A DNA stretch of 64,000 nt from Wolfiporia cocos. Lineage: Eukaryota; Basidiomycota; Agaricomycetes; Polyporales; Phaeolaceae. Of this stretch, positions 7,002 through 37,529 are shown piece by piece. The position numbers and the translations under genes are program-made. The notes under the pieces are model-generated. The model saw only the letters and a list, made by a program, of their open reading frames with translations, made no database searches and was not told the DNA's origin. The stretch's first letter is position 1. The number at the start of each line of letters is the position of its first letter. Location: the NCBI GenBank assembly GCA_029448655.1, contig JACCLO010000010.1, positions 2,294,001-2,358,000 of the forward strand. Direction: 5' to 3'.

Positions 7002-7155
7002 ATGTCTGTCAGTCCGATATACAATCCAGTCTCTTGATGGAGCGTTAACCACAGCATGCTATCAGGAAACCGCACAGTGCGCTAACGTCAAGGCCAACGG
7101 TGGCACCTGCTCTTACCCCGCATGTGGCTGCTCTGAGCCTCCCAAGAGCAAGTAG
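7002..7155 (+). CDS. Cysteine-rich mini-protein, type I, copy 1
   Basis: Two exons, 7002-7007 and 7066-7155; intron 7008-7065 (GTCAGT...ATCAG). Encodes 31 residues starting MSETAQCANVK and ending CGCSEPPKSK, with four Cys at 7, 17, 22 and 24 (C-x9-C-x4-C-x-C). No signal peptide or membrane segment; probably cytosolic. The same protein is encoded at 9726, 20552-20705, 22318-22471, 34162-34315 (one change) and 37376-37529. Differences among copies in exon 2 are almost all synonymous while introns and flanks differ more, supporting a real, selected gene. Cysteine content suggests metal binding, similar in size to some short fungal metallothioneins, but I do not recognise the family; function is inferred only. 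Confidence 0.75.
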
Positions 7156-8019
7156 AGATCGGGTATATCAAAGGTATGAATTGTGAATCATGCGCAGGCG
7201 GGAATCGGTTGACACTGACCTGTCGTATAGATGTCGTCGTGCTGCCAACCTACCGCCGTAGCAGATGTGTTCATATGTCGTCCGCGAGGCTTTGAGTACT
7301 ACGACATCTGAATGTACCGTTCTGCGATCGAAATCATATTTCTAGTCCCGCGATAAGCAATATTGTCTGATGCACATAGCGGGGTCATTGTCATTGTCGG
7401 AGTATATGGATCCGCATCGTCTGAACGGCAGTGCCGTCATTTAGTGAGTAGTAGGCTCCGATGTTCTTTGGGAGCGTCATCTGTAAGGTACCGGTACTCG
7501 TGATTGTATGAATTTATGGGCTCATAGCTGCTCACGGCATACATTTGAGCTTTTCTGCATCGTTTGTCGTTGGTTCTCACTATAGATGGGTTATAACTGG
7601 CGTTGGTTGTCGCGCTTAGCCGCAGAAGGTGACATAGAGGTCGACATCGAGGCTTACAATGCGGCATCTCACTGTCAGCATGAAGTCTTCATAGGGTATC
7701 AAAGCACTTATTTCACAAACCCCTCTCGTAGAACTCGGGTATGCTGGCTCTTGTAGCTGACTATATCGGGCAGTATTGTGGCCGTTTCTGTTTTCGTTGC
7801 GCAATATACATCACTGTGATTGTCATACAGACAATGTCATGTATCCGTTGGTTCCTTGTCTCGCTGCCGAAGCCCTTTTCCTCAGTCACTGTGCAGCCAT
7901 CATGGCTGAGGTAAAGGACTTAGGGGCGAGACGACCTATACGAACCAGGATACATGTGACGCTGTCAGTATGACAATGACAGGTTGTCGCGAGGTATCAC
8001 ACATAGCGACGACAGTACT
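7156..8019. repeat. Cluster 1 spacer, repeat-unit DNA
   Basis: Matches, in reverse complement, DNA in cluster 3 around 36620-37370 and in cluster 2 around 21990-22320. Examples: the block around 7255-7320 (CTACCGCCGTAGCAGATG) recurs downstream of every type I gene, and 7830-8060 matches 36600-36800. No gene is seen here. Confidence 0.6.
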
Positions 8020-8310
8020 GTCATCCTGTATCGTGTGGCGGACTATTGCCTCTGCAATGGCCCGTTGCGCACCTACTCCCATTGCGAGACCAAAGTGGCA
8101 GAATCAAGGCAAAAACAACAGCATTCCGGCGTGGTGCAGTGTGAGTATAGCGGAGAGAGACGGCGGGGAGTTAGGGGCAGAGTGCTTTCCGAGCTACGAG
8201 TCGGCTCGCATGGCGCGAGCTTGTCCTGATGCAGGCATCTTTGTGGCTCTCGGGATAGCCACCCGCCTGTATATCTGCAGCGAAGAAGCTAACGTGCACC
8301 GAGCGTAGCT
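8020..8310 (-). repeat. Repeat A, diverged copy
   Basis: Shares order and words with repeat A on the minus strand: the GTGTGGCGGACTA block, an ACTCCCATTGC(A/G)AGACCAA block, a GTGAGTATAGCGGAGAG block, then GATGCAGGCATCTTTGTGGC and CTCGGGATAG, ending in GCTAACGTGCACCGA. A truncated relative lies at 36480-36620. More divergent than the other copies. Confidence 0.55.
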
Positions 8311-9640
8311 GTCGTTGATGGTGAATACATATGGTTAATTCCTTGCATATAACGTTGGATGCTATATGACCAATCAGACTTACGCTTGAACTCCAAGAGT
8401 CATGAGAAGGGCCTTGATATTCCGACACGTGTAATTAGCCGGTGCAGATACTGTCTCCACAATCATCCGCCTTGATGAAGCGATCGTTCTTCGAGAAGCT
8501 CTCATTCCTGCGATCTGGGGTCAGAAAATTTAGAACGTCATACTAAATCGATGTGCAGAATGGGTGATAGGCCATATACTTTGATCGGATTACTTGAGGA
8601 GAGCTGCACTGCCTGTTCAGTCAAACGATTGATTTGAAATCGACCTGAGGAATAGATGCGACCTGGACAGAAGTGGATGTTAATGCCGCCGTGCTATGCA
8701 GTTTGAGAGTCCCATTTCAGAGGCATTCTCGAAGCTGCCATGCTTCTCATGACCAGACATGAAAGCATACAAGTCAGCGGCTGTATTGTCCACCTGACAA
8801 ACGCCGGCATTCCCGTTGGATGATTGAAAAGGCCCATAGCGGGCAGAAGGTCTGTGAATACCACTACGAAAGACCGTTTGCAGCAGTAAGGCCGCTTCTG
8901 ACGAGCCGTTCCAATCATGATCGTTGATGCACGACACAGTAAGCCAAGCGTTGAGTGTTCCGTGGCTATAACTCGCAACACTTCGCATGACTCGACGCGT
9001 GTTTGAAGATTTGACGTGCATACCTCGCAGGTCATGGGGCTTGTTTTGAAACAAGCGCGACTCACCTGGCGCTCACAGTCTCATGTACTAGGCAAATGCT
9101 TTTGGGTATGTTCAAAATGGATAGGCGCTCGCCGTAGGATCACAGATACGCCAAGACGCGATCGAAATGGAAGTAACAAATTCGCACGCGGCCAGCGGGA
9201 GCGCTTTCCTGGAAAAGTACAGGCGTCTCATTCTGGATCGTCCAGTCCATCGGATAAAGATGAATATCGTGATCAGCGCAGGCACGTTCAAATGCTGGCA
9301 TCTCGTGTCGCAGCTTTTGGTAATGAGAATATGCTATTGGACGGACAAAGAAATGATGCAAACAATAATATCGGTTCCATCTGTCTTGACTCTACTTATA
9401 CTGAGATGTAGAGGTCGAAGTCCTTGGATTGCATTGCATAAGGGGATGACCGAGACCCGGAATTGATATGATAACGGGAGCATCGACACCGGGACTCTAT
9501 TGATGGCACAATAGAGAGATCCAACGAATACGACTGCTGTCGTTTACATGAAGGAAGACGAGCCAATGATATCTCCACAGTTACCATGGCCCAATAAGAC
9601 GTGGTCTATTGCGCCATCATACGTTGGGAATCTTTGTACC
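8311..9640. repeat. Cluster 1 spacer, repeat-unit DNA
   Basis: 9060-9310 is the inverted counterpart of about 21105-21290 in cluster 2 and 35030-35240 in cluster 3. A segment at about 8694-8830 (GACATGAAAGCATACAAG) resembles 11780-11880 and, inverted, 32420-32520 and 36060-36150. No protein-coding gene supported. Confidence 0.5.
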
Positions 9641-9650
9641 TCTTAGTGCC

Positions 9651-9665
9651 ACAGCACATATAAAA
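9651..9665 (+). promoter_or_regulatory. TATA box of peptide gene at 9726
   Basis: GCCACAGCACATATAAAA: half of the palindrome seen at the other loci (GCCACAG) directly precedes TATAAAA at 9659-9665, 61-67 bp before the ATG. The left palindrome arm is degenerate here (TTTGTACCTCTTAGTG). Confidence 0.55.
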
Positions 9666-9725
9666 CGGTTGCAAGAGTCTCCAGCACACCCCAGTCATCG
9701 ACTACATACATCTACAACTATCAAC

Positions 9726-9880
9726 ATGTCTGTGAGTCCGATTAACAATACAGTGCTTTGGTAGAATGCTGACCACATCACGCTTACCAGGAAACTGCAC
9801 AGTGCGCTAACGTCAAGGCCAACGGTGGCACCTGCTCTTACCCCGCATGTGGCTGCTCTGAGCCTCCCAAGAGCAAATAG
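9726..9880 (+). CDS. Cysteine-rich mini-protein, type I, copy 2
   Basis: Exons 9726-9731 and 9791-9880; intron 9732-9790 with GTGAGT donor, a TGCTGAC branch-like site and ACCAG acceptor. Protein identical to that at 7002-7155 (31 residues, C-x9-C-x4-C-x-C); coding differences are synonymous (ACC/ACT, AAG/AAA). The intron differs clearly from that of copy 1 and groups with those at 20552-20705 and 34162-34315, so two promoter/intron lineages carry the same peptide. Confidence 0.75.
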
Positions 9881-10734
9881 AGATCGGATATATCAAAGGT
9901 ATGAACTGTCAATCACGCATTGATAGGCATCGATTGACGTCAAAAATTACATAGATGTCGTCGTTCCGCCAACCTACCGCCGTAGCAGATGTGTTCATAT
10001 GTCGTCCGCGAGGCTTTGAGTACTACGACATCTAATGTACCGTTCTATCACGGAAAGGACTATATGGGATTGCACTCTGCAGTGCTTAGTGAAAGTCAGC
10101 GTTGCTGTCAGAGTACTCGGGGCCGCGTCATCAGCATGGCAGTCATCTTTCCACCCACATTAGCGTTGCAGCTCTTTTTAAGTCACATCTAGTGAGCACC
10201 AACAATCTGATATTCTTTGAAGATTATACCACATGATTTATTCAGTATAATTTATCGGTGATTGCTGCAGATATGCACGGTGCGTGAGGTATAATAGGAC
10301 GACGAGTGGCGCGCGATAGCCGCGCAGACTACATGTGCCACCGCCCGCGAACTATTAGTCTCGAGACTATTAACGTTCACATTACATGCGGGTCTACAGC
10401 AAGTCTCATCGCAGAAGAGAGTAGCATGGAAAGCTTGATTCGGGGAACGCGTCGTACATTCCACGTGACCGCGCTTGGACGGGCCTCGAGTTTCGGTTCT
10501 GACCGACGTGGTATGTCGCGGTCAGCCGCAGAGGTTGGCATGGAGGCTGACATAGAGGTTTACAATGTGGCTGGCTACAGTCAGCGAGAAGTCCCGCCGG
10601 GACATAAAACGCTCTCCTTCATGAACGCTCTCCTTCACAAATCCTCTCCCTCATCTCGTCACCTTCCTCCTCGACTCATCAACCTCGTATGTAGCATTTT
10701 ATCACGACAACTGAACAGTAAGCACTCATATACA

Positions 10735-11395
10735 TCATCCCAGCCGACTTCCGTGCCTCAAGGGGGATAGGCGCATCGTCCTCAGGTATGTCACGGCGCA
10801 TATACCCCCTGCATGCTGATGACCCGCTCCGTTTAATAGTTGAGCATTGCTCGTGAGCTGTACTGCACAGGCCAGCCGCCGCATATCGGGATGGACGCAG
10901 CTGCCACTCGGGCCTTCGACGAGTAGGTATGGACAGCGTAGCCATATCGTATGTCCGGGGGTCGGGCCCAAGGGACCGTCCCTGACGATGCCGTGGTCGC
11001 ATCTCCGCGTGGGGTGAGCGATCGCTCCCACGGAGATCGACCATTCTGGCCAGTCATATTCTCCGTGGCTGACTGTGTCGGGCCGTGTCGTGTGGTCGTG
11101 TTGGTGGACTAGTGCCCCCGCGATGGCCGGCTGTGTTCTTTATCCCATCCCAAGGCCAAGATATCAAGAGCAAGAGCAAGATCAGGAGGGCTAGTGATGT
11201 AGTGTAAGTATGGTAGAGTGAGACGGGGTATGGGAGGCGGTGGGCAAGGGGGGGGAGTCCCGAGGTATGGGTTGGTCCGCATACTATTGCGAGCTGATCC
11301 TGGCGCAGGCCTTTTCGTGGCCCTCGGGATAAGTACTCGTCCGTATATGCACGGCGGGGAAACTAACGTGCGCCGAATAAGGACGTGAATGATGG
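10735..11395 (-). repeat. Repeat A, cluster 1 copy
   Basis: ~660-bp interspersed repeat seen on the minus strand. Landmarks in element orientation: GCGCACGTTAGTTTCCCC, CTTATCCCGAGGGCCACGAA, CCTGCGCCAGGATCAGC, an ACCCCGTCTCAC block, CACTAGTCCACCAACACGAC, GACTGGCCAG, and an end near CCTATCCCCCTTGAGGCACG. Full or partial copies lie at 18996, 32846, 40468, 50271 and 63718. No terminal inverted repeats and no conserved protein recognised; the long frames in it are not conserved between copies. Confidence 0.7.
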
Positions 11396-11639
11396 TTAGC
11401 ACGTAAGGTCAGGTTGTTTGTGATCGTCGGACGAACGCAAGAGGACTTTGCGACTCGCACTTCGTGCATGACTTGGCGATGTAGCTGGTGAATGAACTAA
11501 GTGATATACTGCATCTACATCGTTAAAGCGATGTGTGTGATCGAATACGGTGCTATTGGCCCCCCCATAGTCAACCACGATGAAGCGGATGCCACCTCTT
11601 GAGACATCAATACCCCCAAAGTTGTATCACAGCATGTGG

Positions 11640-12060
11640 GACGTCACATCATTCTCTTAGTGTGGGGCCGGGTCAGAAGAACATGCCCAGATCACCGCGT
11701 CATGGATATGGCGGCGAAAAACATGGACACTCTGAAAGTCGAATACGGCATGGGCGTTCAGAAACTCATCTTGGCATGCAGTTTGAAAGAATTTGAATAC
11801 AATGGAGTCTTTAGAACAGCCATTATTCTCCTGCTTCGACATGGAAGCATACAAGCATTTTGCTATATTGTATATCTGACAAAATCCAGCACCGTTGTTG
11901 GGTCGCCAATAGCATGCAAAGATATCAAGAATTCCAATAAGAAAACGCCGTTTTGTCTCGATGGAGTTGTGCCAAAACGGCTGGCTATGTCAGAGATCAG
12001 CGCCACAGCACATAGAGAGGCCCGAAGGTCCCCAGTAAGCCTCAGTATTTGACTACACTC
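11640..12060. repeat. Upstream region of type II peptide gene, related to repeat D
   Basis: The minus strand of 11750-11900 shares interrupted words (GTATGCTTC, GCAGGAGAATAATGG, ACTGCATGCCAAG) with 32420-32530 and 40040-40140. The same sequence type lies upstream of the decayed type II copy at 35699-35853. No independent gene seen. Confidence 0.4.
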
Positions 12061-12072
12061 GTATACACTACC

Positions 12073-12209
12073 ATGTCTGTAAGTGAAACGTACTGGACAA
12101 CCGAATGTGGGCGCCGATGACATCGAAACAGTGCGCTAACACCGAGGCTAATGGTGGCGCCTGCTCCTGGCAGACATGTGGCTGTGCTGAGCCGCCCAAG
12201 AGCAAGTAA
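12073..12209 (+). CDS. Cysteine-rich mini-protein, type II
   Basis: ATGTCT followed by GTAAGT donor; relative to type I the acceptor region has lost five bases, so the nearest acceptor is AAACAG at 12131, giving exon 2 at 12132-12209. Predicted protein is 27 residues, MS then CANTEANGGAC, SWQTCGCAEPPKSK, keeping all four Cys with C-x9-C-x4-C-x-C. The Trp in SW(Q/P)TCGCA replaces Tyr-Pro-Ala of type I. Two more type II loci, at 21737-21885 and 35699-35853, are disrupted. Whether the shifted acceptor is used is unknown, so this may be functional or in early decay. Confidence 0.55.
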
Positions 12210-13400
12210 AAACTGGCCGCCTAATACAGGTACTCTCAGCGCCATGCTTACTATGATATTGTAATTAACCAATAGCGCACAGTGATCGTCACTTCCAAAC
12301 ACGTAAAACGTGGGTAAGGCGGAGCTGCTTTCAGTGACCCTGCATGGTTTGGAGGATTTAAATGTCTGAGTCTAGCTATCAATCCACATTGCTGTATGAA
12401 AGCTTGTATAGAGCAATCGTTCACAGCAGAAACACAACTTCCAAGTTCCGAGGAGCTGCCCCCGTCAAGATAATGTCCTCCGCGCCGTCGATGCACAGAT
12501 TGAGAAGGCCAGGTGAGGAGTATGATACCAATCCTGCAGCTACCTCCGCAATGCTTCATATGGCTCAACGCGTAGCGGATTTCCTGACGCGGAAATCTTG
12601 CGAACAGCAGCACCAAATGTAACAGCCCGCTAGACAGAACATTACACAATGCGCGACTCAATCAATTTACAAGATCGTACGGAGTATTACTGTTGGGTCC
12701 GCTGGATGAGTGTAGTTGCGTTCAGCAGCCCAAGTAGCTGAAATGTGAGAGCAAGCGGATCGAACGAGATCAGGATAGGCGCTCGCTATAGGGCGATATC
12801 AAATTCGGCCAGAGCGTCGGAATGCGCGTGTAAATGATCGAGACGCGATCGACGTGACGTTCATGCACGCGACCGCGACCGCGTTGTAGTATCTGGTAGC
12901 GCTTCAATACTACTGTTCGAATCAGTCGCATCCGTTTACATGATCCATGTATGTGTCGGATATTACAGATAGGATAGACGTATGCCGACGCTGATCGCCC
13001 ATCGGCCTCGTAGTGAGGCTGTGACAATGTACGATTGCATCAACCGAAAACCTGCATAATCAAAGATAAGATTTCCATCTGGCTCGCTTTCCAATTATTC
13101 AGAGTTATAAGGAACGAAGTCCTTCGGTTTGACCATGAGCGACGCATTGTTTTCCTTCGCCCGATTGGATCTTGGTAATGTGACTCAACGCAATTAGTCA
13201 TCCATACAGCTTCGGCTATTGTTCAGTCATCCGCGCAAATGACCCAACAATCTCTCGCAATCACTCTCACCTCTCACATACTCTGGCCTCCGACAGCACT
13301 CGCCTTCGAGCCCGGGGTTTGATAGCCCTGCTTACAATATCGGTAAAACTGCCGGACGATAACTAATCGGACAGCCCGGGCTTGCGGGGACACTTCATCG
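12210..13400. other. Gene-free stretch before the F-box gene
   Basis: 12770-13020 has words resembling the cluster DNA (GGATAGGCGCTCGCTATAGG also seen near 9121 and inverted near 35170). From 13050 onward it appears to be promoter DNA of the F-box gene. No coding features. Confidence 0.4.
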
Positions 13401-13415
13401 TTGTCTTCGACCGCC

Positions 13416-15269
13416 ATGCACACTCTCGCGACGATACCTCAAGAGGTGCTCGAACACATTGCATTCTTCAGCGCGACCGATCCCTTTCTCGGCCCGCCTG
13501 CGGGGGTCGTCCCGCTGCTCGCTGTGAACCGCCGCATCAACGACGCACTCTCCCTCCGCACCAATCCGCACCTCTGGGCGCGCATATTCGCGTACAAATT
13601 CGATTTGGCCCCCGCCGTGCGCCGTCTCGGCACCGAATGGACGACTACAGCTACGATTGCGCAGGAGCTAGTGCACCGATGCACGCTCATGTCGCGCATA
13701 CGCAGACGCACCGATACGACTGCGCCCTCGCATCAGATCAGCAGTAGGCACAAGAAGTCGGTTTTGGCGACGCTGTGGATGGCGTATCTGATGATGCTAG
13801 AGAACGACGGGAATAATGCGGCGCAGTTGCGTGAATATGCGATGATCGACGAATGGCTGAAGGAATATCTATTTCACTACCATGGCGCGTCGCGTATTCG
13901 GTGGTGTAACCGGACAGATTACTGGCCCCCTGCGAATGAAGACCACATATCGCTCGCGGTGTGGCTGTTCTGGCTCACGTTCATTCCAGGTGAGTATGAT
14001 CATACGATATGCAGGGACAGTCATCACTGACAAGAGTTGGTAGACGAGTACGGGAGAGATGACCCAACGTTCCGCGACGCTGTGACCGCCTTCAAGATCA
14101 TCGCGCTCGGCGCCCACGAGGTTCGCATCCTCGGTAGACCTCCCATGAATTCGCACCGCTAACTCACCACAGTACGACCTCTGCATCCCACCCTGGCAGC
14201 ACTTCGTTCCCTCCAATTCACCACCCTTTACACCGGTAGTGCACTTCGGCGCCACACTGCACCTCGTGCCGCCCCCGCCCGCCGCCCCCGCGTTCCTCGC
14301 GTACATGGCGCTCGTAAGTAAACTCATCGTCGCGCTCGACACGATCAGCTATATGAAGCGGCCAGACCTGGGAGTGCCGAGCATGTCCGCGATGACCGAC
14401 GCGCGCGAGTGGGACGCTGAGTGGGGCCGGGCGGTGGGGTCGGGTGACGTCGCGGCGTGCGCCCCGGGGCCCGCACCCGCGTTCATCCCGGGCAGTCTGG
14501 AGGGGTCGTGGGAGGGCCTATTCACCGTGAGTGGTGGTATCCGTGATGCGCGATGCGCGATGACGCTGACGGCCCAGCGTAGTACACGGATTTCACCGCG
14601 TACGCGGAGCTGCTGTCAGGTGGGAAGCCATCCGTGCTGGAGCAGAGCCTTGTTGCGCAGCATTCACAGCTGTGGCGGCTGCGCGAGCACCATATGTATG
14701 CCCCGGACGACGAAGGCGGAGACGGCAAGGTTGGCAGCGTCGTTGACCCGCTGTCGCCTGGGAACCCGCTCCGGGGCTACCTCCCCCTGCACACCGAGGT
14801 GGATGAGCGGCCAGAAGGGCTGGAGGTCAGCGAGCCCGGGAAGAGTGCGGTATTCTACGAAAGCTGGGCAAAGGCGAGGAAGTTGGCGGACGGGAAGCCG
14901 CGGAGGGTGCGGGATACCATCATCATTGGCGAGGTGCGTATCATTCGCCTCTCAGGCTTCTCGTCCACTTAGCCTTGCATGCAACTAGGGCCATTCTGCG
15001 TGGGGTCAGTTCAACCTGATCGGACGGGTGAGGCCGTGCGACGGTTTCATCAGCTTGTCGAAAGATTATGTATGTATCCAGCTACGCTCTAGTCGCGACG
15101 CAGAGACTCACAGTGCTTATAGATGAACGGTGAACGTGGAAGATGGCTCTACCGCGGCTATCTGGTTGGTAACGCGAACGGCAATCTCTCCGGACGGTGG
15201 CGAGATACGCTCAGCCCGCCTGATGTGCCGGGTTACGAGGGCTGCTTCCTGATGAGCAGACGGAAGTAG
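13416..15269 (+). CDS. F-box domain protein
   Basis: Six exons: 13416-13989, 14044-14120, 14173-14526, 14583-14933, 14989-15069, 15123-15269; 527 residues. ATG context CCGCCATGC. The N-terminus (IPQEVLEHIAFFSA, then VPLLAVNRRINDALS and NPHLWARIFAYKFDL) is a degenerate F-box, the motif that ties substrate receptors to Skp1 in SCF ubiquitin ligases. The rest follows an agaricomycete F-box layout with WLFWLTF, REWDAEWGR, GSWEGLF, LREHHMY and a C-terminal GRWLYRGYLVGNANG plus LSPPDVPGYEGCF block. All introns are short (49-57 bp) with GT-AG ends and frames join without a break, so the gene looks intact. Its substrate is unknown. It lies between two inverted peptide-gene clusters. Confidence 0.8.
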
Positions 15270-15462
15270 CCTATGTTCGACAGTGGTATCGATGTATAGA
15301 GTGTCCTTCTTGATATGATATCTCCGGTATTGCGATGCTGCGTTTTGTGACTGCTGTGTATACTGCTTATGATGTGCTCTATCCAGTCCTATATTGCTAT
15401 CAGAGTATTGGGGACGCCCGTATATACGATAATCCGTGGATCTACACCCGAGAAGTTCACTA

Positions 15463-16305: not shown

Positions 16306-16316
16306 TACCACAGTTA

Positions 16317-17029: not shown

Positions 17030-17061
17030 TATGTAAAACTCATGGATTCGCGACCTGGGAA

Positions 17062-17100: not shown

Positions 17101-17726
17101 GGCTGGGAACTCTTCATCAGGACTGTGGGTTAACATCCGAGATCGGATCAGATTGCTGTGAACGGGCGCCAGATCATGACATAGAATCAGGTGTGGCGTT
17201 CAACCCACGGGGCACCACCATGCGAACGTCCGTACCTCCTGCATAGGCTCCCCGTTTATCGTCATACCTACGCTACTTACTTGGAATCCACGTGGATCTC
17301 AGCTTTCAGGACGCAGTAAATTGACGTCAAAGTCTGACCACGTAAATCAATAGCGGCATCTGCCATCGTCATCACCGTTTGAATCGACGGGGCTCTAACT
17401 ACGCGGCGCGGCACCAGTCTACCTTCGAGAGCGTGGATTTGGTACTACTCTTCTTGCGGAACTCGAATCATTGGAAGTTGAGGACTTTACTACCCGCCAA
17501 GCCCACTTGTTACGAGGTCAGCACACGACGCCACTCTGCTAATCTAAGCCTATCGTAAGTCCGAATCGAACTCAAACATCCGCTAACGAGAGCCTACTTG
17601 TCACTGTGCAGGACACTGATAGAGAGAAGTCACTAGCTAGAGTGAGCTTATTGGTATATCAACTAGTGCCAGGTTCATGTTTGTGACTGTAGGCCCCGAG
17701 AGAAGTTGCTATCATCGATTTCAATC
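17101..17726. other. Upstream region of Nudix gene
   Basis: No coding frame supported; assumed to hold the promoter. No TATA box of note. Confidence 0.4.
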
Positions 17727-18697
17727 ATGAGCATAGATCGCCAAACAACGAATCGATTCATGTCCATCATGAGAAGAGGTGGGACGCCGCAGCTCACGAA
17801 TCACCATCCGGAAAGTCATTCGACCCAGCAAAACCCGCCGGAACATAGTTCTACCAATGCACCAGAATACCGACAGGCATCACGCCCCTCCAGGCGATCA
17901 TCAACGCCGGCTGCGCCGTATGGCCACAGGTTCTCCGAGTTCTCCTCGCCTGCTGTCCCTGCCAGCATCTGGTACTCCTCGGACTTTCTGCTCGGCGCGG
18001 GCATGGTCATTCTGCAGCCGTCTAGCGGGAAGGTGCTACTGTGCTGTGAAGGCGAGAGATGGTTCTTACCCAAGGGCCGGAAGGATGTCGGCGAGAGCCT
18101 CGAGCAGGCGGCACTGAGGGAGGCGTACGAGGAGGTAAGTCTAAGTAGCCTGTACTGAAGTCGTTGCGTGGCGCTCATGTAAGCTGTGTTTCTGATAGTC
18201 CGGGTACCGAGTAGAGTTTCTGCCGGTTGTCCAGGACATGAACGCGCCGCGGCCCCCGGGATCGAGGCGTCAAGGCAATAGCCTCACAACGGAGCCATTC
18301 TACGTCAGCGCCACCGCATACGGCCCCGGGTGCATGCGGTCAAATGGGATCGAGTACATAATCTTCTGGTACATCGGTCAGATTGCCGCGGACGCAGTGC
18401 GTACAACAAGATATCTAATTTGCGCATGATCTTGACCGCGTCTGTTTTGTGGTCAAGGTTCGCGAAACAGGTACCGGTATGCCCGACGAGCAGCACTATG
18501 AGGCGCATCTCCTGGATTTTGACGCTGCCTTGAACGCCCTGAACAATTCAGGTAGTCAGGAGTCCGTTTTGTTGCTACGGATGGCGCACAGCATATGGCT
18601 CCAGACAAGGAAGGTGATCAACGGGGGATCTCCATCTAACAATCGGGTTGGCGGCAGTGTCTTGGAAGCTGAACGAAAGGATGATATCATGACTTGA
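17727..18697 (+). CDS. Nudix hydrolase
   Basis: Three exons, 17727-18134, 18199-18396 and 18458-18697; 281 residues. Nudix enzymes cleave nucleoside or inositol diphosphates linked to another group, using a Mg-binding helix. The Nudix box G-x5-E-x7-REUxEExGU spans residues ~117-139: GRKDVGESLEQAALREAYEE at the end of exon 1 joins SGY at the start of exon 2, which confirms the intron. Preceded by SIWYSSDFLLGAGMVILQPS and EGERWFLPKG, the usual beta strands. The N-terminal ~65 residues are low-complexity. The C-terminus (QESVLLLRMAH) is unassigned. Substrate cannot be told. A frameshifted paralogue lies at the left window edge. Confidence 0.85.
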
Positions 18698-18995: not shown

Positions 18996-19680
18996 ATTAC
19001 TCACGTCCTTACTCGGCGCACGTTGGTTTCCCCGCCGCAAATGTACGGACGAGTACTTATCCCGAGGGCCACGAAAGGGCCTGCGCTAGGATCAGCCCGC
19101 AATAGTATGCGGACCAACCCATACCTCGGGACCACCCCCCCTGCCCACCGCCCCCCACACTCCGTCTCACTCTACTATACTTACACTACATCACTAGCCC
19201 TCCTGGTCCTGCTCTTGTTCTTGATAACTTGGTCTTGTTATGGGATAAAGGACATAGCCGGCCATCGTGGAGGCACTAGTCCACCAACACGACAACACGA
19301 CACGGCCCGACACAGTCAGACACGGAGGACATGACTGGCCAGCATGGCCAATCTCCGTGGGAGAGATCGCTCACCCCACGCGGAGACACGACCACGGCAT
19401 CGACAAGGACGGTCCCTAAGGCCCGACCCCCGGACATACGATATGGCTACGCTGTCCATACCTACCCGTCGAAGGCCCGAGTGGCAGCTGCGTCTATCCC
19501 GCTATGCGGTGGCTGGCCTGTGCAGTACAGCTCACGAGCAATGCTCAGACTATTGAACGGAGCAGGTCATCAGCATGCAGGGGGCATGTACAGTATATGC
19601 GCCGTGACGTACCTGAGGACGATGCGCCTATCCCCCTTGAGGCACGGAAGTCGGCTGGGATGATCCATATGAGTGCTCAG
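18996..19680 (+). repeat. Repeat A, cluster 2 copy
   Basis: Nearly complete + strand copy of the repeat described at 10735-11395, from TTACTCGGCGCACGTTGG to CCCCCTTGAGGCACGGAAG. Followed by the same cluster DNA as in clusters 1 and 3. Confidence 0.7.
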
Positions 19681-19699
19681 CGTGCAACATTTAGCTGTC

Positions 19700-20551: not shown

Positions 20552-20705
20552 CTACTTGCTCTTGGGAGGCTCAGAGCAGCCACATGCAGGGTAAGAGCAG
20601 GTGCCACCGTTGGCCTTGACGTTAGCGCACTGTGCAGTTTCCTGGTAGTGTGATGTGGTCAGCATTCTACCAAAGCACTGTGTTGATTATCGGACTCACA
20701 GACAT
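20552..20705 (-). CDS. Cysteine-rich mini-protein, type I, copy 3
   Basis: Minus strand; ATGTCT at 20700-20705, intron 20642-20699 (GTGAGT...CCAG), exon 2 20552-20641. Protein identical to the copies at 7002 and 9726. A TATA box (plus-strand TTTTATATGTGCTGTGGC near 20765-20782) lies about 60 bp upstream and its flanks match those of copy 2, so this gene is the inverted duplicate of 9726-9880. Confidence 0.75.
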
Positions 20706-21736
20706 GTTGATAGTTGTAGATGTGTGTAGTCGATGACTGGGGTGTGCTGGAGACTCTTGCAACCGTTTTATATGTGCTGTGGCACTAAGAGGTACAAAGA
20801 TTCCCAACGTATGACGGCGCAATAGACCACGTCTTATTGGGCCATGGTAACTGTGGAGATATCATTGGCTCGTCTTCCTTCATGTAAACGACAGCAGTCG
20901 TATTCGTTGGATCTCTCTGTTGTGCCATCAATAGAGTCCCGGTGTCGATGCTCCCGTTATCTTATCAATTCCGGGTCTCGGTCATCCCCTTATGCAATGC
21001 AATCCAAGGACTTCGACCTCTACACCTCAGTATCAGCAAGACAGATAGAGCCGATATTATTGGTCACACCATATATCTGTCCGTGCGATCGCATATCCCC
21101 GTCGCCGAAAAGCTGCGACGCGAGGGGCCGGCATTTGACGATCCAGAATGAGACGACTGTACTTTGAAGGCGCTCCCGCTGGCTGCGTGCGAAATTGTCC
21201 TTTCAATCTCCGACGCGTCTAGCGCCGTAACGATCCACTTCGGACATAACCAAAGGCATTTGCCTTACTCCTAGCGTGCCATGAGATTGTGAGAACTGGG
21301 CGAGTCGCGCTTGTATTGTTTTTCTAACAGGTCGTTGCATTCAGTCACATGGCCCACAAGGTATCCGCGTCGAAAATTCAACCACGCGTCGAGCCATACG
21401 AATGGAACGGCGATAACACTCTACGCTTGACATACTGTGTCGCGCATCGACGACACGGAGACCGTTATGCTGACGGAAATGGTTTGTCATGAGCTGCCTT
21501 CCTGTTGCAAATGGTTGCTTCATCTCATCCCACAACCTTCCGCAAAAGAAGATGGATGGATACGATCCATAGATATCGGCATACATCCAGATCGCACTGC
21601 CACTTCCAAACAACAGACTAACATTCTCCCTTGCCCGCGGTCCGCAAATTTGATTGAAGGTGACGGTTACTGCGGGCTATCGGTCAACTACCACGCCATA
21701 ATATGCATGAGATTCACAGTACCTTTTACCGGATTC

Positions 21737-22317: not shown

Positions 22318-22471
22318 CTACTTGCTCTTGGGAGGCTCAGAGCAGCCACATGCAGGGTAAGAGCAGGTGCCACCGTTGGCCTTGACGTTAGCGCACTGTG
22401 CGGTTTCCTGATAGCATGCTGTGGTTAACGCTCCATCAAGAGACTGGATTGTATATCGGACTGACAGACAT
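22318..22471 (-). CDS. Cysteine-rich mini-protein, type I, copy 4
   Basis: ATGTCT at 22466-22471, intron 22408-22465 (GTCAGT...ATCAG), exon 2 22318-22407. Protein identical to copy 1. Intron and 5' flank closely match copy 1 at 7002-7155, so it is its inverted duplicate. Confidence 0.75.
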
Positions 22472-22561: not shown

Positions 22562-22699
22562 AGATTACCCACGTATAGCGCCGCAATAGACCACGTCTAA
22601 TTGGATCTCAGTAACCGTTGACGTATGATTGGTCTGTCATCTTTGTGAATGAGTGCGATCGTATTCGCTAGATAGAGTCTGTGTTTCACCAGTGTCGGT

Positions 22700-29637: not shown

Positions 29638-29819
29638 ACACTCTGCGATTCATGCTTTCGTGACCAAGCGGTGTAACAATGCATGACGGTTCTCTATGAC
29701 GCTGATATGCTTTCATTTCTCGTAACTCTGACGCGTCAGACTCTTCACATCGTGCGGACGCTTCTCCGGGACTTCTGTGGAGCAAGATAATTGACGTTAC
29801 CTAACAAACTGGGTTCGCC

Positions 29820-29999
29820 ATGCAGATAGTCCCTTCATTTCCTTGTCTGCCTCGAGTCGCTCCATCTATTCCACCTCTATCCAGATTGGAAGGCAGTCTT
29901 CCTTCGCGGTCTTTCTCTCTGAGCTTATTCGAACAAGCCCGTGAACGACTACAAAGGCACAGACCGAAGGTGCCCCCGAAGGTTCCCTCGAGCACTTAG
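29820..29999 (+). CDS. Small frame, possible 3' exon
   Basis: 59 codons from ATG at 29820 to TAG at 29997-29999: starts MQIVPSFPCLPRVAPSIPPL, later SFSLSLFEQARERLQRHRPK and ends VPPKVPSST. Composition is protein-like and basic, but no family is recognised and no upstream exon is evident. Confidence 0.25.
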   Translation: MQIVPSFPCLPRVAPSIPPLSRLEGSLPSRSFSLSLFEQARERLQRHRPKVPPKVPSST

Positions 30000-30232
30000 C
30001 AAGCGCAATCCACAGGGGTGCGGGTCCACGCAGACATCAGGCAGCCCATAAAAGATCCTTCCACCGTGTCAGAACAATTAGCAGAGCGCCGTTACGAAAC
30101 TAGGAAGGAGAAGCCACGAAATCATGCATCATGGTTGAGGATGCGTTCATTTGTATTTGCATGGTCCAAAGTTTCACTCGCAGCAAGTCCAGAGTAGCTT
30201 CTTATGTAATGATGTCATGGACCACGTTTGTA

Positions 30233-30945
30233 AGATAGACCCAAGTCATACTCAACCAGGGGGTGTCACACCGTGACATCCACGTGCCGCAGACTAATCC
30301 GGCATGATCAGGACTTGTCTATTACATGATATGTAAATTACAAAAACAGAGTACACGTGCTGTCCTGGGCATGAAAGGATTCAATCTATGTTACATTGTC
30401 TAGCTTGGCCGAGACACCTTCTGGGGTCACTCTACGGCCATGGTCGCCGCCCAAGCTGCTTGGGAGCCAGAGAGTCCCTTGCGGTATGCATCCATAAACA
30501 TCTGCGAACGCATATAGAATTTATGTAAACGTCAACAATTAACTCACAATATAACGAGGCAGTATATCATACCTTTGAATGTTCGCTTTGTGGATTGTAT
30601 GCTCTTAGCAATGGTCTCTCGAGACTACATGTTGGAAGACACAATCTGTATGTCTGGGCATATATTCGATGGATAATGTCATCCTCCTAAATTGTGCGAT
30701 GCTGACTAGTTCGACGGGTCGGCCACATAAATAGCCACATAAGAAGGGACTGATGCACTTTATCAAAAATCGAAAACCTGAGAATCCTCAACCTTTGTGT
30801 TTGCAAGAGATCTCAGTTTTTAGATTTTACTCAAATGGTCTTTGACCATTGTTATGTCAAATGCAAGTTGCTCACTCTGTCAAACTCGCCTCGGCGTGAC
30901 AGATTTTGGTCATGTGACGTGATTGAGTATGACTTGGGTCTATCT
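30233..30945 (-). mobile_element. 713-bp TIR element with spliced mini-ORF, copy 2
   Basis: Inverted copy of 16317-17029, same length, same terminal repeats (AGATAGACCCAAGTCATACT). Left flank TA at 30231-30232; right flank CA instead of TA, so one base of the target duplication has changed. Sequence differences from copy 1 are few (for example the Val to Ala change in the internal peptide), pointing to recent movement. Confidence 0.8.
30427..30501 (-). CDS. 24-residue peptide frame inside TIR element, copy 2
   Basis: Minus-strand equivalent of 16761-16835 with the same acceptor (TTCGCAG) before the ATG and a single amino-acid change near the end (MAVE versus MVVE). Confidence 0.35.
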   Translation of the reverse strand: MFMDAYRKGLSGSQAAWAATMAVE

Positions 30946-31596
30946 CAGCAGGTGTAGACAAAGCGAGGCCAAGCTTGTTGATGAGCAGAATGTCAAGCGG
31001 TGTATTGCAATTGCAATTGCATTCTGAGCTTCAGTAGCTTGTATGGCCGTATTACATAATGCCGTGGGTTATGTAACTAGTTTCCCAGCAAGAGAGCCCT
31101 ACCCGGCGCCAACGAAGGACGCGAGCGAGGCTGCGCACTGCTCTCAGCAGCCAACGAAGACTAGAAGGTGAGGCACGGTCAATTGTCGGGGATGGAGATC
31201 TCGACGCGGTGCTTGCGCTCAAGAATCTACGGAGTCTCGGACGTGGTCGCTCGCGGACCGCAGGAGCGTCGCTTGAGTGCACGATGATTGCTGGAACTGT
31301 AAGCGTCGTGGCAGGTGATAGGATACCTTCAGATCCGTCGCCTGCGGGAGCCTAACGCTCCCCTCTCTGTGTGATGCGTTCTGCAGTATCTATGGGTGCA
31401 GTGACAATGTGAGTGATGTATGAAGATTCCTGTTTGACGTTGAAGACCGGAATATGGAGGGGTAAGCTGTGGTGAGAGTCGACTACAACGAGACGCTCGG
31501 GCCACACATATGTGAGTGCCGCGAAGTTGTTCATAGCCGTGTGACTCGAGAGGCGTGGGACGGGCGTGTTTGCGGGGGCAGTATGCGTGAAATTCT
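30946..31596. other. Gap with no recognised gene
   Basis: An arginine-rich plus-strand frame runs through about 31090-31360, and overlapping minus-strand frames exist, but none has motifs or splice support. Direct repeat TTGCAATTGCAATTGCA at about 31006-31022. Confidence 0.35.
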
Positions 31597-32845
31597 GCTG
31601 ACACGCGGGAAATATCAACCGTACTAACGGGCGCTACCATCACCATCTTCATCATATTCTAGGGCACAGTAGGAACTACGCTACAGTCGAGATCTGGTGC
31701 TCTCCCTGCAATCAAGGCTTATCGCGATTGATCAGAGGTTGGAGGGGTTGAATCGAATGCATCATGAAGACCTCAATTACCTCCAAAGACATCGTCCTCG
31801 GAAAATCTGTTCCGCGAGCGCGGTGTGCTGGTGAAACCGGGAAGTAAATTAACCTCTACATCGTGACTCTGTATCGCACAGTATGATTGCCTGTCCTGTA
31901 TTCGCATTCACATTGTTTCGAACTCATTTTCTAAGACATATACTGAAGCTCTCGCTGTGGCAAAAGCAAGAAGGAGGTGCCTCTCCCCGGGTACTGATAT
32001 CGAAATTTCAAAATTCGTCCACAAGATATGGTATCTTGCACGGTGCACGATTAGAGTACATGACACTGTCGAGTCACACAGAGGTACACAGGATTTGATG
32101 CCATGCTATGAATGCACGGCGAGTTCCCGGCTTAGACATAATAATGTTTTGGAATGGTATGTGCAAAGAGAAATCGCACACCTGGACCTATGGCGTATGC
32201 CTTGCCACAATGTATTGACAATCTGCCCTTGGTCTTCTCTCGTCCCTTATCGACGCGCCCATAATCACATGCGGCTTGTACGATACATGAGATATGTTCA
32301 TTAAGGCTGCATTCAACATAGCCAACGGTATTTACGAAACGCCACTAAGATCTACCTCAGTGGCAGTTTATAGCCTGTGTTCAGTAGGCCTTTCGATTAC
32401 CCAGCAGCCGCTTTGTCAGATGTACAAAATAGCAGAATCCTCGTATGCTTTTATCCGGACGCAGGAGAATCATAGTAGTTCAGAAGACGCCGCTGTATTC
32501 AGTTACTCTCAAACGGCATGCCAAGGCGAGCTGCTTCTATACACGCCTTAGGTCAACTATTCGTTCTTTCGCCTCCACGTTCACAATACGATCAAGTGCG
32601 GATCGTGTAACGATGATTAACTCACGGTGGCCTAACATAATATACTTGATGCAGTGCGACATCCCGCATGCGTACTCTATTATATGTGAGGAAGCGATGG
32701 CCCATGGAGTGATTATGGCGGGCTATAGCTTCACTGAATTTTATCGCGCGAATCGACATGTCGCCGTTCCTGTAAATGATATGGCAGAAGTGCTACACGT
32801 ACCTTATAATCTGACCTTGCGCGCTCATCATCATTCACGTCCTTG
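31597..32845 (+). repeat. Repeat D, copy 1
   Basis: ~1.25 kb closely matching 39226-40467 in the same orientation, including AGGCTTATCGCGATTG, CCTCAATTACCTCCAAAGAC, GAGTACATGACACTGTCGAG, GCCAACGGTATTTACGAAAC and GATGGCCCATGGAGTGATTA. Both copies run straight into repeat A. Copies differ by small indels (for example the AGGTACACAGGATTTGATG insert at 32081-32099). No protein recognised. Confidence 0.75.
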
Positions 32846-33465
32846 TTCGGCGCACGTTGGTTTCCCCATCGTACATATACGGACGAGTACTCATCCCGAG
32901 GGCCACGGAAAGGCCTGCGCCAGGATCAGCCCGCAATAGTATGCGGACCGACTTGTACCTCGGGACCCCCACACCCCGTCTCACTCTACTATACTTACAC
33001 CACATTACTAACCCTCCTGGACTTGCTCTTGAGACCTTGGTCTTGCAATGGGATAAGAACACAGCCGGTCATCGTGGGGACACTAGTCCACCAACACGAC
33101 CACACGACACGGCCCGACACAGTCAGCTACGGAGGACATGACTGGCCAGCATGGCCGGTCTCCGCTGCAGCAATTGCTCACGCCACACGGAGACACTGCC
33201 ACGGCATCGTCAGGGACGGTCCCGACTCCCGGACATAGTACGATATGGCTATGCTGTCCATACCTACCCGTCGGAGGCCCGGGATGTAGCTGCGTCCATC
33301 CCGCTATGCGGTGGCTGGCCTGTGCAGTATAGCTCACGAGCAATGCCCAGACTGTCGAAGGGAGTGGGTCGTCAGCATGCAGTGAGCATGTATGTATATG
33401 TCGCAACGTACCTGAGGACGATGCGCCTATCCCCCTTGAAGCACGGAAGTCGGCTGAGATGATGT
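32846..33465 (+). repeat. Repeat A, cluster 3 copy
   Basis: Plus-strand copy from GGCGCACGTTGGTTTCCCC to CCCCCTTGAAGCACGGAAG, slightly shorter than the 19-kb copy in the C-rich tract. Followed by cluster DNA matching 19700 onward. Confidence 0.7.
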
Positions 33466-33479
33466 ATATGAGTGCTCAC

Positions 33480-34161
33480 TGCTCAGCTGTTGTGATAGAA
33501 TTCTACATACGAGTCGATGAGTTCAGGAAGGCCATATAAGTCGATGAGTCGAGGAAGGCTACAAATCAATCTTCTATGCCACTCTTTTATACCACTCTTT
33601 TCTGCGACGAGACCTGCTGTAGAGCTGCCTGCAATGTGAATGTTCATGGTCTCGAGACTAGTATCTGTAACTCGCGGGCGGTATTGGCACATGCAGTCAC
33701 TGCGCGGCTAACGCGCGCCACTCGTCGTCTCCTACACCTCAAAGCCTCACGCACCGTGCATATTAGCAGCGATCACCGATACGTTATACTGAATCATGCG
33801 ATATATTCTCGGAATCTTGAATAGATTGCTGATGCTTACTAGATGTGACTTATGGGAGGTGCAACACCGATACGGGTGGAAGATGACACTGCCATGCTGG
33901 CGACGCGACCCCAAACATTCTGACGACAAAAATAACATCGCTGGCTTTCATCAATAGTTTTCGAGTGCAATCAGAAAAATCCCATTCCTGTGAAAGAACG
34001 GTACATTCATGTCGTAGTACTCAAAGCCTCGCGGACGATATGAACACATCTGCGGCTACGGCGGTAGGTTGGCAGCACGACGACATCTATACAGAGTGTC
34101 CGCGTCAGCCGGTGCCTGCCAACGCATCTTACATAATGCATACCTTTGATATATTCGGAGT
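33480..34161. repeat. Cluster 3 unit DNA
   Basis: Direct counterpart of 19700-20551 and inverted counterpart of 9960-10690; includes the TCTCGAGACTA motif near 33651 and GCTACGGCGGTAGGTTGGC near 34056. No gene seen. Confidence 0.6.
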
Positions 34162-34315
34162 CTACTTGCTCTTGGGAGGCTCAGAGCAGCCACATGCAGG
34201 GTAAGAGCAGGTGCCACCGTTGGCCTTGACGTTAGCGCATTGTGCAGTTCCCTGGTAGTGTGATGTGGTCAGCATTCTACCAAAGCACTGTGCTGATTAT
34301 CGGACTCACAGACAT
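34162..34315 (-). CDS. Cysteine-rich mini-protein, type I, copy 5 (Glu3 to Gly)
   Basis: ATGTCT at 34310-34315; acceptor CCAG then GGA ACT GCA CAA TGC. The protein is the same 31-residue type I peptide except Gly in place of Glu at position 3; another change, CAG to CAA, is synonymous. TATA box and flanks match the copies at 9726 and 20552-20705. Confidence 0.72.
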
Positions 34316-34756
34316 GTTGATAGTTATAGATGTGTGTAGTCGATGACTGGGGTGTGCTGGAGACTCTTGCAACCGTTTTATATGTGCTGTGGCACTAAGA
34401 GGTACAAAGATCCCCAACGTATGACGGCGCAATAGACCACGTCTTATTGGGCCATGGTAACTGTGAAGACATCATTGGCTCGTCTGCCTTCGTGCAAACG
34501 ACAGCAGTCGTATTCGTTGGATCTCTCTGTTGTGCCATCAATAGAGTCCCGATGTCGATGCTCCCGTTATCTTATCAATTCCGAGTCTCGGTCATCCCCT
34601 TATGCAATCAATGCAACTCAGGGACTTCGACTCTACATCTCAGCATCAGCAAGACAGATATTATTGGTCACATCATATACTTGTCTGTGCGATAGCATGT
34701 CCTCGTTGCCAAAAAGCTGCGACGCGAGGGGCCGGCATTTGAATATACCTGCTCTG

Positions 34757-35021
34757 TGTCGAAATTTACGGATAGCCGCCCGCTCGTGAGGCGAGCTCCC
34801 TTTCGGACTCCAGGGACTAGGTTCAAACGCACGTCGTAATTACAATCCGTCCCCTTTTATCTAACGGTGACTCATCTGCCCGTACCGCCCCGATTATCAG
34901 CCCCCCCCCGACTCCGGCCGGATCCCGCCGCACCCCGCCATTTCCGCCTTGGCGCGCTATTGAGTCCAATCGATGCGCGACTCCGATCGCACCAGCGCGC
35001 CGAGCGCGTCGACTTCCAACA
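34757..35021 (+). mobile_element. Solo LTR, copy 2
   Basis: 265 bp, TGTCGAAATT...TTCCAACA, with 5-bp target duplication CTCTG at 34752-34756 and 35022-35026. The empty site is visible in cluster 1: the reverse complement of about 9255-9300 reads across CCTGCGCTGATCACGATATTC without the insert. So the element entered cluster 3 after the clusters were duplicated. Same family as 4321-4583. Confidence 0.85.
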
Positions 35022-35029
35022 CTCTGTTC

Positions 35030-35698
35030 ACAATATTCATTTCTATCCGATGGACTGGAATGAGACGACTGTACTTTTCCAGGAAAGCACTCCTGCTGGA
35101 CGCGTGCGGAATTGTCATTTCAATCTCCGACGCGTCTAGCGCCGTAACGTCACGCCAATGCGATCCTACAGCGAGCGCCCATCCACTTCGAACAAGGCAT
35201 TATTTGCCTTACTTCTAACGTGCCGTGAGGCTGTAAGCACTGGGTGAGTCGCGCTTGTGATGTTTTCTCTAACAGGTCGTAGCATTCGGTCCCATGGTAC
35301 ACGAGGTATCCGCGTCGGAAATTCAGCCAGGCATCGAGTCGTACGAAGCGTCGCAATGGTAATTGCAACCATGGAACGGCGATAACACAACTCTTGACCT
35401 ACTGCGTCGCGCATCGACGACGCAGAGACCACTATCATGACGGAAATGGCTCGTCAGGAGCTGCCTTCCTGTTGCAAATGGTTGCTTCATCTCATCCCAC
35501 AACCTTCCGCAAAAGAAGATGGATACGATCCATAGATATCCGCATACATCCAGATCGCACTGCCACTTCCAAACGACAGACTAACAACATTCTCCCTTAC
35601 CCGCGGTCCGCAAACTTGAAAGTGTCGGTTACTGTGGACTATCGGTTAACTACCACGCCATAATATGCATGAGATTGAGAGCACCTGTTATCGGATTC
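35030..35698. repeat. Cluster 3 unit DNA
   Basis: Matches 21140-21735 of cluster 2 almost throughout (for example CCTTCCTGTTGCAAATGGTTGC and CCGCAAAAGAAGATGGAT). No gene seen. Confidence 0.6.
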
Positions 35699-35853
35699 TC
35701 ATTTACTCTTTGGCGGCTTAGCACAGCCGCATGTCGGCCAGGAGCAGGTGCCGCCATTAGCTTAGTGCTTGCACAATGATTTGTGTCCTTGGTACGTATC
35801 GGTGTTAGAGTCGTCTGCCTTAAGCCCTGCCGGCACATTGATCACACAGACTT
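35699..35853 (-). pseudogene. Cysteine-rich mini-protein, type II, decayed
   Basis: The start position reads AAG instead of ATG (35851-35853), the acceptor AG is lost (ATCAT), and one base is missing after CASTK-, but the rest is a clean type II tail: ANGGTCSWPTCGCAKPPKSK then TGA. The preserved four-Cys tail shows the family motif well and makes the type II consensus readable. Confidence 0.65.
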
Positions 35854-35941
35854 GATCATGGTTGTATCTAATCGTAGTCGAATCCTGGAGCTTGCTCTGA
35901 TCTTTGAGATCACTTTATATACTGATTTTAGACATGGCGTA

Positions 35942-37016
35942 TTGATACAGCGCCATCAATGCGAAACAGTCTTTCCTAGCGGTGATCATTTACCTTCCGC
36001 GTACTATTGGCTTTTTCCAGCCATCCAAGGGGGATTCCGGCGTTCGTCAGGTGCACAATACAGCTGAAGACTCGTATGCTTTCATGTCGGGTCATCAGAA
36101 CCATGACAGCTTCGAAGACGCCTTCTAACGGGAACTCTCAAAATGCAATGCAATGAGGCATCGTTGATCTCCTCTAATGTGCACGTCGAATTCAATCCCC
36201 GTATGGATCTCAAATCGTCTTTTGATCGAACTGTGCAGTGCATCTTGTGCCAACGTAATCTGACTAAGGTATCCGACTTATTACCCATTTTGCGCAATGT
36301 CGTGTTATGACGTCCTTCCAAAACGCAGGGATTAGAGCAACAATCGCTATAACACGGCGGGTTGTGGAGGAAGTATCTACACAGGCTAATCATAGGCGTC
36401 GGCATATCAAGGCCCTACTCATGACTCTGGCGTTCAAAACGTAAGACTAAGTTGGTCATATAGCATCTAACATTATACGTACGCTATGCTTACACTGCAC
36501 CACGCCGGAATGCTGTCATCCTGGACTTGATCCTGCCAATTTAGTCTTGGAACGGGAGTAGGTGCGCAACGGGCCGTTGCGGAGGCACTAGTCCGCCACA
36601 CGATGACAGCACTGACGTCGCTATGTGTCAAAGTATCTCGCGGCGACCCCATTGTAACACTGACAGTGTCACATGTCTCCTGGTTCGTATAGCTCGTCTT
36701 GCTCCCTAAGTTCTTTACCTCAGTCGTGATGGTTGCATAATGACTGATGAAAATGGCTTGAGGAGCGAGACAAGGAACCAACGGATACATGGCACGATAC
36801 TGCCAGACAGTCATCCACAAACAGTATGACTCGCCCGCATGCCCATTCCCACGCAAAGGGTTTGTAAAGCAGAGGTTTTGATACCCTATGAAACCTCCAT
36901 ACTGACAGTGAGCCTCTGCGGCTAACAGCGATAGCTAACGACAAACGATGCCGAAAAGCTAGAATAGACTCTGTGAGCAGCTATGAGCCTATCTGTACAT
37001 GCAATCCCGGATACCG
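35942..37016. repeat. Segment present in clusters 1 and 3, deleted from cluster 2
   Basis: ~1.08 kb. In cluster 2 the flanking words GACATAGCGTA and GTGCCTTACATATACAG are joined directly near 21973. Parts match cluster 1 in inverted orientation (36490-36810 with 7830-8110). Contains a truncated repeat A relative at 36480-36620. No gene recognised. Confidence 0.6.
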
Positions 37017-37375
37017 GTGCCTTACATATACAGCTGACGTTCCCTAAGAACATTTGAGTCCTAACGCTCACTAGATAAGGTAAATAGAAAAAGACGACAC
37101 TGCCGTTTAGACGATGCGGATCCATATACTCTGACAATGACGATGACCCCGCTATGTGCATCAGACAATAATGCTTATCGCGGGACTCGAAATATGATTT
37201 CGATCACAGAACGGTACATTCAGATGTCGTAGCACTCAAAGCCTCGCGGACGACATATGAACACATCTGTTACGGCGGTATGTTGGCGGCACGACAACAT
37301 CTATACGACAGGTCAGTGTCAACCGATTCCCGCCTGCGCATGATTCACAATGCATACCTTTGATATATCCGATGT

Positions 37376-37529
37376 CTACTTGCTCTTGGGAGGCTCAGAG
37401 CAGCCACATGCAGGGTAAGAGCAGGTGCCACCGTTGGCCTTGACGTTAGCGCACTGTGCGGTTTCCTGATAGCATGCTGTGGTTAGCGCACCATCAAAAG
37501 ACTGCATTGTATATCGCACTCACAGACAT
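37376..37529 (-). CDS. Cysteine-rich mini-protein, type I, copy 6
   Basis: ATGTCT at 37524-37529, donor GTGAGT, acceptor ATCAG, exon 2 from GAA ACC GCA CAG TGC to TAG at 37376-37378. Protein identical to copy 1. Upstream lies the palindrome CTGTGGCGCT/AGAGCCACAG (37600-37620, one arm slightly decayed) and a TATA-like TATTATATGG (plus strand 37589-37598) in place of TTTTATATG. Confidence 0.75.

Follow-up and report, generated by a model that had tools for sequence, protein, structure and literature searches.

An amplified family of intron-split four-cysteine micropeptide genes in Wolfiporia cocos whose promoters point to HapX-type iron control

A 64,000-nucleotide stretch of the genome of the polypore Wolfiporia cocos (contig JACCLO010000010.1, positions 2,294,001 to 2,358,000; hereafter the window) contains six near-identical genes for a 31-residue peptide with the cysteine pattern C-x9-C-x4-C-x-C. 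As judged from sequence, these genes are part of a family of functional, amplified, intron-containing micropeptide genes, and the promoters of this family are enriched in CCAAT-N12-RWT, a motif known from iron regulation in other fungi. Our favoured reading, to which we give about an even chance, is that the family encodes an amplified cytosolic four-cysteine metal-binding peptide that belongs to the iron regulon of HapX and may buffer thiolate-bound iron or [2Fe-2S].

In silico splicing of the six loci yielded MSETAQCANVKANGGTCSYPACGCSEPPKSK five times and a variant carrying the replacement E3G once. A preliminary description of the window had proposed six such loci, each split after codon 2 by an intron of 58-59 bp, and both points hold for every copy: exon 1 is ATGTCT, the intron is of phase 0, has GT-AG borders and reads GTSAGT...CAG, and exon 2 ends in TAG. 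Copies 1 and 2 lie on the forward strand, copy 1 (intron type A) at 7002..7155, with exon 1 at 7002-7007, the intron at 7008-7065 and exon 2 at 7066-7155 including the TAG (31 amino acids), and copy 2 (type B) at 9726..9880 (exon 1 9726-9731, intron 9732-9790, exon 2 9791-9880). The other four are on the reverse strand: copy 3, type B, at 20552..20705 (exon 1 20700-20705, intron 20642-20699, exon 2 20552-20641); copy 4, type A, at 22318..22471 (22466-22471, 22408-22465 and 22318-22407); copy 5, type B and the bearer of E3G, at 34162..34315 (34310-34315, 34252-34309 and 34162-34251); and copy 6, type A, at 37376..37529 (37524-37529, 37466-37523 and 37376-37465). The locus positions first assigned are those of the ATG in the forward copies (7002, 9726), whereas in the reverse copies (20552, 22318, 34162, 37376) they are the 3' (stop) ends instead. 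A recount of the coding differences among the six copies again gave four synonymous changes and one replacement, and the division of the introns into two types was borne out, identity being 69-75% between types (three pairs computed) and 92% and 100% within types (two pairs).

The family extends well beyond the window. In the genome of 64.43 Mb (76 contigs, the window being C2:2294001-2358000), a protein search detected at least 26 loci, 12 on C2, 12 on C56 and 2 on C12, in support of the amplification proposed earlier; a DNA search detected 20. Ahead of the 5.8S rRNA the genome has a long spacer, in keeping with Wolfiporia. Twenty-two loci are intact, with ATGTCT and a GTNAGT...AG intron of 55-83 bp, and represent 18 distinct coding sequences and 11 distinct proteins; four more (L051-L054) were set aside as altered or decayed. 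The presence of at least 26 loci, 22 of them intact and with 18 distinct coding sequences, excludes a chance origin. All four cysteines are among the 22 of 31 residues that are invariant in the intact copies, which makes for a cysteine content of 4/31 (13%) with one CxC, and position 19 is W or Y in 22/22. The open reading frames (ORFs) begin with MS[DEG]T, and by eye none of the 22 copies has a signal peptide or N-terminal hydrophobic segment. Replacement changes (pN) are rarer than silent ones (pS) in 153/153 pairs of distinct coding sequences, with a ratio of means of 0.16, and when the 22 genes are sorted by promoter similarity into 13 groups (our own grouping), the group representatives average 85% identity in coding sequence and 58% in introns. 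The purifying selection first proposed from the six window copies is thus upheld, and the balance of replacement to silent changes behind it persists genome-wide.

Relatives occur in other fungi. Three protein database searches returned 6, 4 and 8 matches, eight proteins in total, all with the conserved exon: two from Laetiporus sulphureus, one from Rhodonia placenta and five without a source name. In all, relatives are found in Laetiporus, Rhodonia and metagenomes. The original claim that such genes are hidden from gene callers holds only in part, since the Laetiporus and Rhodonia members are in protein databases, annotated as 'uncharacterized/hypothetical' and with extended N-termini. Two relatives (P0001, P0003) contain MSDTVKC, matching the reading expected of a spliced junction. 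Three others (P0004, P0006, P0008) read MS-VSI...Q-DKATC, with an insert of 20-24 residues that begins Val-Ser and has Gln at its end, directly before the conserved exon; the insert may be a read-through intron of 60-72 bp in the same place, with a GTNAGT start and a CAG end. From these junctions and inserts, different species probably share the same gene structure. As the preliminary description had supposed, the peptide belongs to no recognised family that we could find with Pfam, NCBIfam and PDB searches. A Pfam scan of three peptides gave 0 families at E<=10, and the PDB searches returned only weak, mutually unrelated cysteine-rich matches and no solved-structure family that fits. FibroRumin, a candidate from the Pfam/NCBIfam scans, was rejected at E 0.04-0.05 and 13.5-14.1 bits against a cut-off of 45. 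No published description of the peptide was found among the titles and abstract openings that searches of open-access literature listed (passages of PMC10049176, PMC6797856, PMC11354754, PMC9959139 and PMC7266990 were further sources). Scanning prokaryote genomes with the family profile gave 15 pattern matches and zero confirmed relatives, and hence no sign of a bacterial source.

The promoters provide the main lead to function. Passages of PMC10602907 give CSAATN12RWT as the HapX-binding motif, and Gsaller et al., in the passages seen of PMC4232046, describe a bipartite element of CCAAT and a 3' submotif bound by the CCAAT-binding complex (CBC) and a HapX dimer. One promoter of 500 bp was taken from each of the 13 groups. 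These contain 27 CCAAT boxes against 11.4 expected and 34 TATA-like elements against 11.5 expected, each excess being reached in 0/300 first-order resamples. After removal of two CCAAT boxes so near the ATG that too little flank remained, 15 of 25 were followed by RWT at N12, as compared with 4/88 in the remaining window and 19/311 in a 184 kb control (Fisher 8e-11 against the control); for all remaining spacings between 6 and 19 the promoter counts were 0-6. Expressed as density, there are 15 CCAAT-N12-RWT sites in 6500 bp of promoters, where 0.42 would be expected, against 6 in 93,777 bp and 19 in 184,386 bp of control. Exact sites are present in 9/13 groups (A, B, 36, 38, 39, 44, 45, 46 and 50; binomial 1e-9), in 8/12 when type B is left out (binomial 2e-8), and in 17/22 intact genes. 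Without B, the N12 spacers have a mean identity of 26% between groups, which indicates that the motif has been kept and its flank has not. The occurrence of the motif in the family promoters is well supported.

The window as a whole has 16 sites, 12 of which form 28-bp pairs ahead of the six genes. The pair of copy 1 occupies 6841..6888 on the forward strand (sites 6841-6860 and 6869-6888, with starts 28 bp apart), with a TATAAA at 6937-6942 on the same strand; the remaining pairs are at 9563..9610 (+) for copy 2 and, on the reverse strand, at 20821..20868, 22585..22632, 34431..34478 and 37644..37691 for copies 3 to 6. Metal-responsive (MRE; 8 vs 8.7 expected), stress-responsive (STRE), Zap1-like, TTTGCTG and AP-1-like elements are not enriched in the 13 promoters, and the yeast copper motif, ACE1-like HTHNNGCTGD, is marginal (10 vs 5.5 expected; 12/300 resamples, uncorrected for the 8 motifs tested). 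In place of the metal or oxidative stress that the preliminary description had suggested assaying, the promoters point, through the HapX-type motif, to iron.

From its domain content, the genome encodes both a HapX-like protein and a CBC subunit. The Hap4_Hap_bind family (PF10297) has one genome match over its cut-off, at C12:2334884, and the locus around it (C12:2333384-2336434) also reads RAAQRAFRERKQ and CGFCNTTSSCVC. It features an AQRAFR basic leucine zipper (bZIP) stretch, further cysteine-rich stretches and, in CGFCNTTSSCVC, a fit to CGFCX5CXC, the pattern given in passages of PMC4232046 for the cysteine-rich region (CRR) B iron sensor of HapX. The bZIP_1 domain falls below its cut-off here (16.8 vs 27.6 bits), the scanned stretch having begun inside the basic region. 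The CBC subunit family PF02045 has a genome match over cut-off. According to literature passages on Aspergillus and other fungi, HapX and the CBC repress iron-using genes in starvation and activate vacuolar storage in excess, the Aspergillus vacuolar iron-transporter gene cccA going down in iron scarcity and up in excess; no micropeptide like the present one is named as a HapX target in these literature passages. The four-cysteine regions of HapX are described as holding [2Fe-2S], as are four-cysteine peptide mimics of CRRs in vitro (PMC12390756, in a passage citing its ref. 23). The family peptide resembles HapX/SreA CRRs and these mimics in being short, with four cysteines, and in ending C-x4-C-x-C where CRR-B ends C-x5-C-x-C; it differs in being free-standing, whereas the CRRs are built into transcription factors.

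We infer with good support that the CBC and the bZIP factor HapX bind the family elements and would tie transcription to iron. The direction of the response is a guess by analogy with cccA: the genes would be repressed when iron is scarce and induced in excess. The 31-residue cytosolic peptide would bind one metal centre through its four thiolates, and the metal would most likely be iron, as Fe-thiolate or a labile [2Fe-2S] cluster; a cytosolic four-cysteine peptide controlled by this element would best be taken as an iron-responsive thiolate ligand. The many gene copies would set the dose of an iron buffer in a fungus whose wood decay relies on iron chemistry.

Several observations weigh against this iron reading. 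The cysteine spacing is x9, x4, x1 in the family and x2, x5, x1 in CRR-B (C-x2-C-x5-C-x-C), and a cysteine content of 13% together with a conserved W/Y would be unusual for a metallothionein (MT). Structure prediction with AlphaFold (P0005 and 7 relatives) gave a predicted local distance difference test score (pLDDT) of 61.9 and no confident fold. An exact site is absent from 5/22 intact genes (L035, L037, L043, L047, L049) and from 4/13 group representatives, although p35, 37 and 49 come close to it; L047 lacks even a near match, and its 500 bp promoter has no CCAAT at all. At the HapX-like locus (L069), the frame that was read lacks the Asn of NXXAQXXFR, the signature of the basic region. 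The loci of FTR1 and HapX (~3 kb each) contain no CSAAT-N12-RWT, and the VIT1/CccA-type iron transporter (L070, exon at C6:1780965) has two forward CCAAT-N12-RWT sites at a distance, roughly 906 and 811 bp upstream of the first exon that was matched; the motif is thus not validated on the known iron genes of this species. Finally, the motif was noticed post hoc, from the flanks of CCAAT boxes, albeit with a sequence and spacing that had already been published, and paralogues in the promoter statistics are not fully independent.

A copper (or zinc/cadmium) thionein, which would sequester Cu(I)/Zn(II) and whose copies would have been amplified for tolerance, with CCAAT/HapX as a secondary control, appears unlikely but has several points in its favour. 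CUP1 in yeast is amplified for metal tolerance. Metallothioneins in general have a very high cysteine content, several CxC or CC motifs and few or no aromatic residues; with four cysteines in 31 residues, one CxC and an aromatic at position 19 in every copy, the family departs from this description. The agaricomycete heptaCys MTs (AcMT2 and homologues; passages of PMC12508003) share with it a short length (32 amino acids in AcMT2), introns of ~50 bp and gene duplication, but have seven cysteines instead of four and differ from it in its conserved W/Y; of their motif, C-x4-C-x-C-x2,3-C-x-C-x4-C-x-C, only the terminal C-x4-C-x-C is present in the family. W. hoelen is termed a copper-tolerance fungus in a passage of PMC9503964, and the ACE1-like count leans, marginally, the same way, whereas the MRE count does not and the iron motif dominates the promoter signal. 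A single-sequence PDB search weakly matched metallothionein chains 6gv7/6gv6 (E 3 and 7.7); the match at E 3 to this bacterial type is local, spanning 20 residues on both sides and taking in the four cysteines, but it is not significant and is lost with the family profile, and no prokaryote locus was confirmed. Exon by exon, neither PF02069 nor PF12809 has a genome match over cut-off (PF02069 has one sub-threshold match, E 0.8, away from the family), for which reason the family could be this fungus's metallothionein. The SlMTa/SlMTb family, reportedly that of Nguyen 2017, resembles the present one in occurring in Rhodonia placenta. Passages of PMC9320278 describe it as a Cu-thionein that is ubiquitous across Agaricomycotina and has been detected in R. 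placenta. For the latter species one paper reports no classic metallothionein apart from an SlMT homologue, which would leave room for a copper or zinc role. A ubiquitous conserved family should give more than eight profile matches, and we therefore take SlMTa/SlMTb, compared by description, to be a different family.

It is improbable that the product is a disulfide-bonded effector or antimicrobial (defensin-like) peptide, or the precursor of a ribosomally synthesized and post-translationally modified peptide (RiPP), although multi-copy families are common for both. The pattern C-x9-C-x4-C-x-C, with NGG ahead of the second cysteine, resembles half of a cysteine-stabilised alpha-beta (CSab) fold, and the PDB matches include weak ones to ergtoxin, Ts1 and kalata at E 0.85-9.5. 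CSab defensins, however, have a signal peptide and six or more cysteines, against the MS[DEG]T start and four cysteines found here. RiPP precursors have a conserved leader, a hypervariable core and modifying enzymes nearby. The family peptides show no leader/variable-core pattern and no hypervariable segment, 22/31 positions being invariant, and a Pfam scan that covered 20 of the window's 24 ORFs of at least 150 amino acids, each taken as a single ORF, recognised no modifying enzyme, with spliced genes and the C56 and C12 neighbourhoods outside the scan. That the genes are a copy-number relic, a segmentally duplicated array of little function, is disfavoured and hardly credible. Direct pairs and near-perfect palindromes do bespeak duplication and gene conversion, and four loci are altered or decayed; against this stand pN<pS in every pair, the retention of splice sites, cysteines and promoter motifs while spacers and introns diverged, and the conservation of the family in other species.

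Within the window the genes form three type A-type B pairs, which are segmental duplicates. On C56, two cassettes of three family genes each lie inside near-perfect palindromes, each arm carrying one gene and the spacer the third (L060, C56:1517800-1527700; L059, C56:1414500-1424400). Arm identities are 99.7% over 4148 bp, a comparison that runs to the edge of the fetched stretch, and 99.5% over 1170 bp. As the two cassettes are only ~87% alike, the near-identity of the arms suggests arm-to-arm gene conversion within each palindrome, with an assembly artefact as the alternative. Besides the six genes, which the preliminary description had listed correctly, the window holds two members that it had overlooked. 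A seventh, diverged copy at 12073..12209 (+) keeps ATGTCT followed by a GTAAGT donor and has lost the usual acceptor; an in-frame CAG at 12129-12131 could serve instead, giving a 27-residue peptide that retains C-x9-C-x4-C-x-C. No CCAAT-N12-RWT was found upstream of it. The eighth, a decayed remnant at 35702..35767 (-; L052), has an internal stop. A possible second intron lies in the 3' untranslated region (UTR), in copy 1 at 7174..7230 (+; GTATGA...TAG); donor-acceptor pairs 3' of the stop were found in 10/13 group representatives with a loose regular expression that missed types A, B and L037, of which A and B were read by eye.

A repeat of up to ~640 bp, perhaps a transposable element, recurs at 10758-11377, 19013-19640, 32846-33439, 50307-50926 and 63717-64000, some copies being near peptide genes. 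Other features of the window are a long interspersed nuclear element (LINE)-like ORF with reverse transcriptase and RNase H (941-3541), a NUDIX ORF (17706-18158, +), CDC20-like WD40 ORFs (47289-48768, +), an ASF1-type histone chaperone ORF (51515-52120, -) and a diverged (72%) duplicate of ~1.9 kb (52901-54806 and 55445-57358), three ORFs of which had no Pfam match.

The copy number, the gene structure, the four invariant cysteines, the selection and the promoters with TATA and CCAAT-N12-RWT elements can all be read from the sequence itself. A short spliced gene whose first exon has just two codons is easily overlooked or wrongly modelled, and here more than 20 conserved copies of one exist. 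If the iron link is true, the family would be an overlooked gene-dosage system for iron or iron-sulfur clusters in these fungi, of relevance to iron-dependent wood decay and to iron sensing by HapX, and CSAAT-N12-RWT would be active in a polypore, the literature passages on the element being mainly about ascomycetes. In a more far-reaching and rather doubtful version, these free-standing four-cysteine peptides would form a new class of micropeptides within the iron regulon and serve, beside vacuolar storage, as a genetically dosed cytosolic Fe/[2Fe-2S] buffer. They might draw clusters away from the four-cysteine sensors of HapX, with feedback on the regulator of their own genes, and their amplification would be a brown-rot adaptation to iron-based decay.

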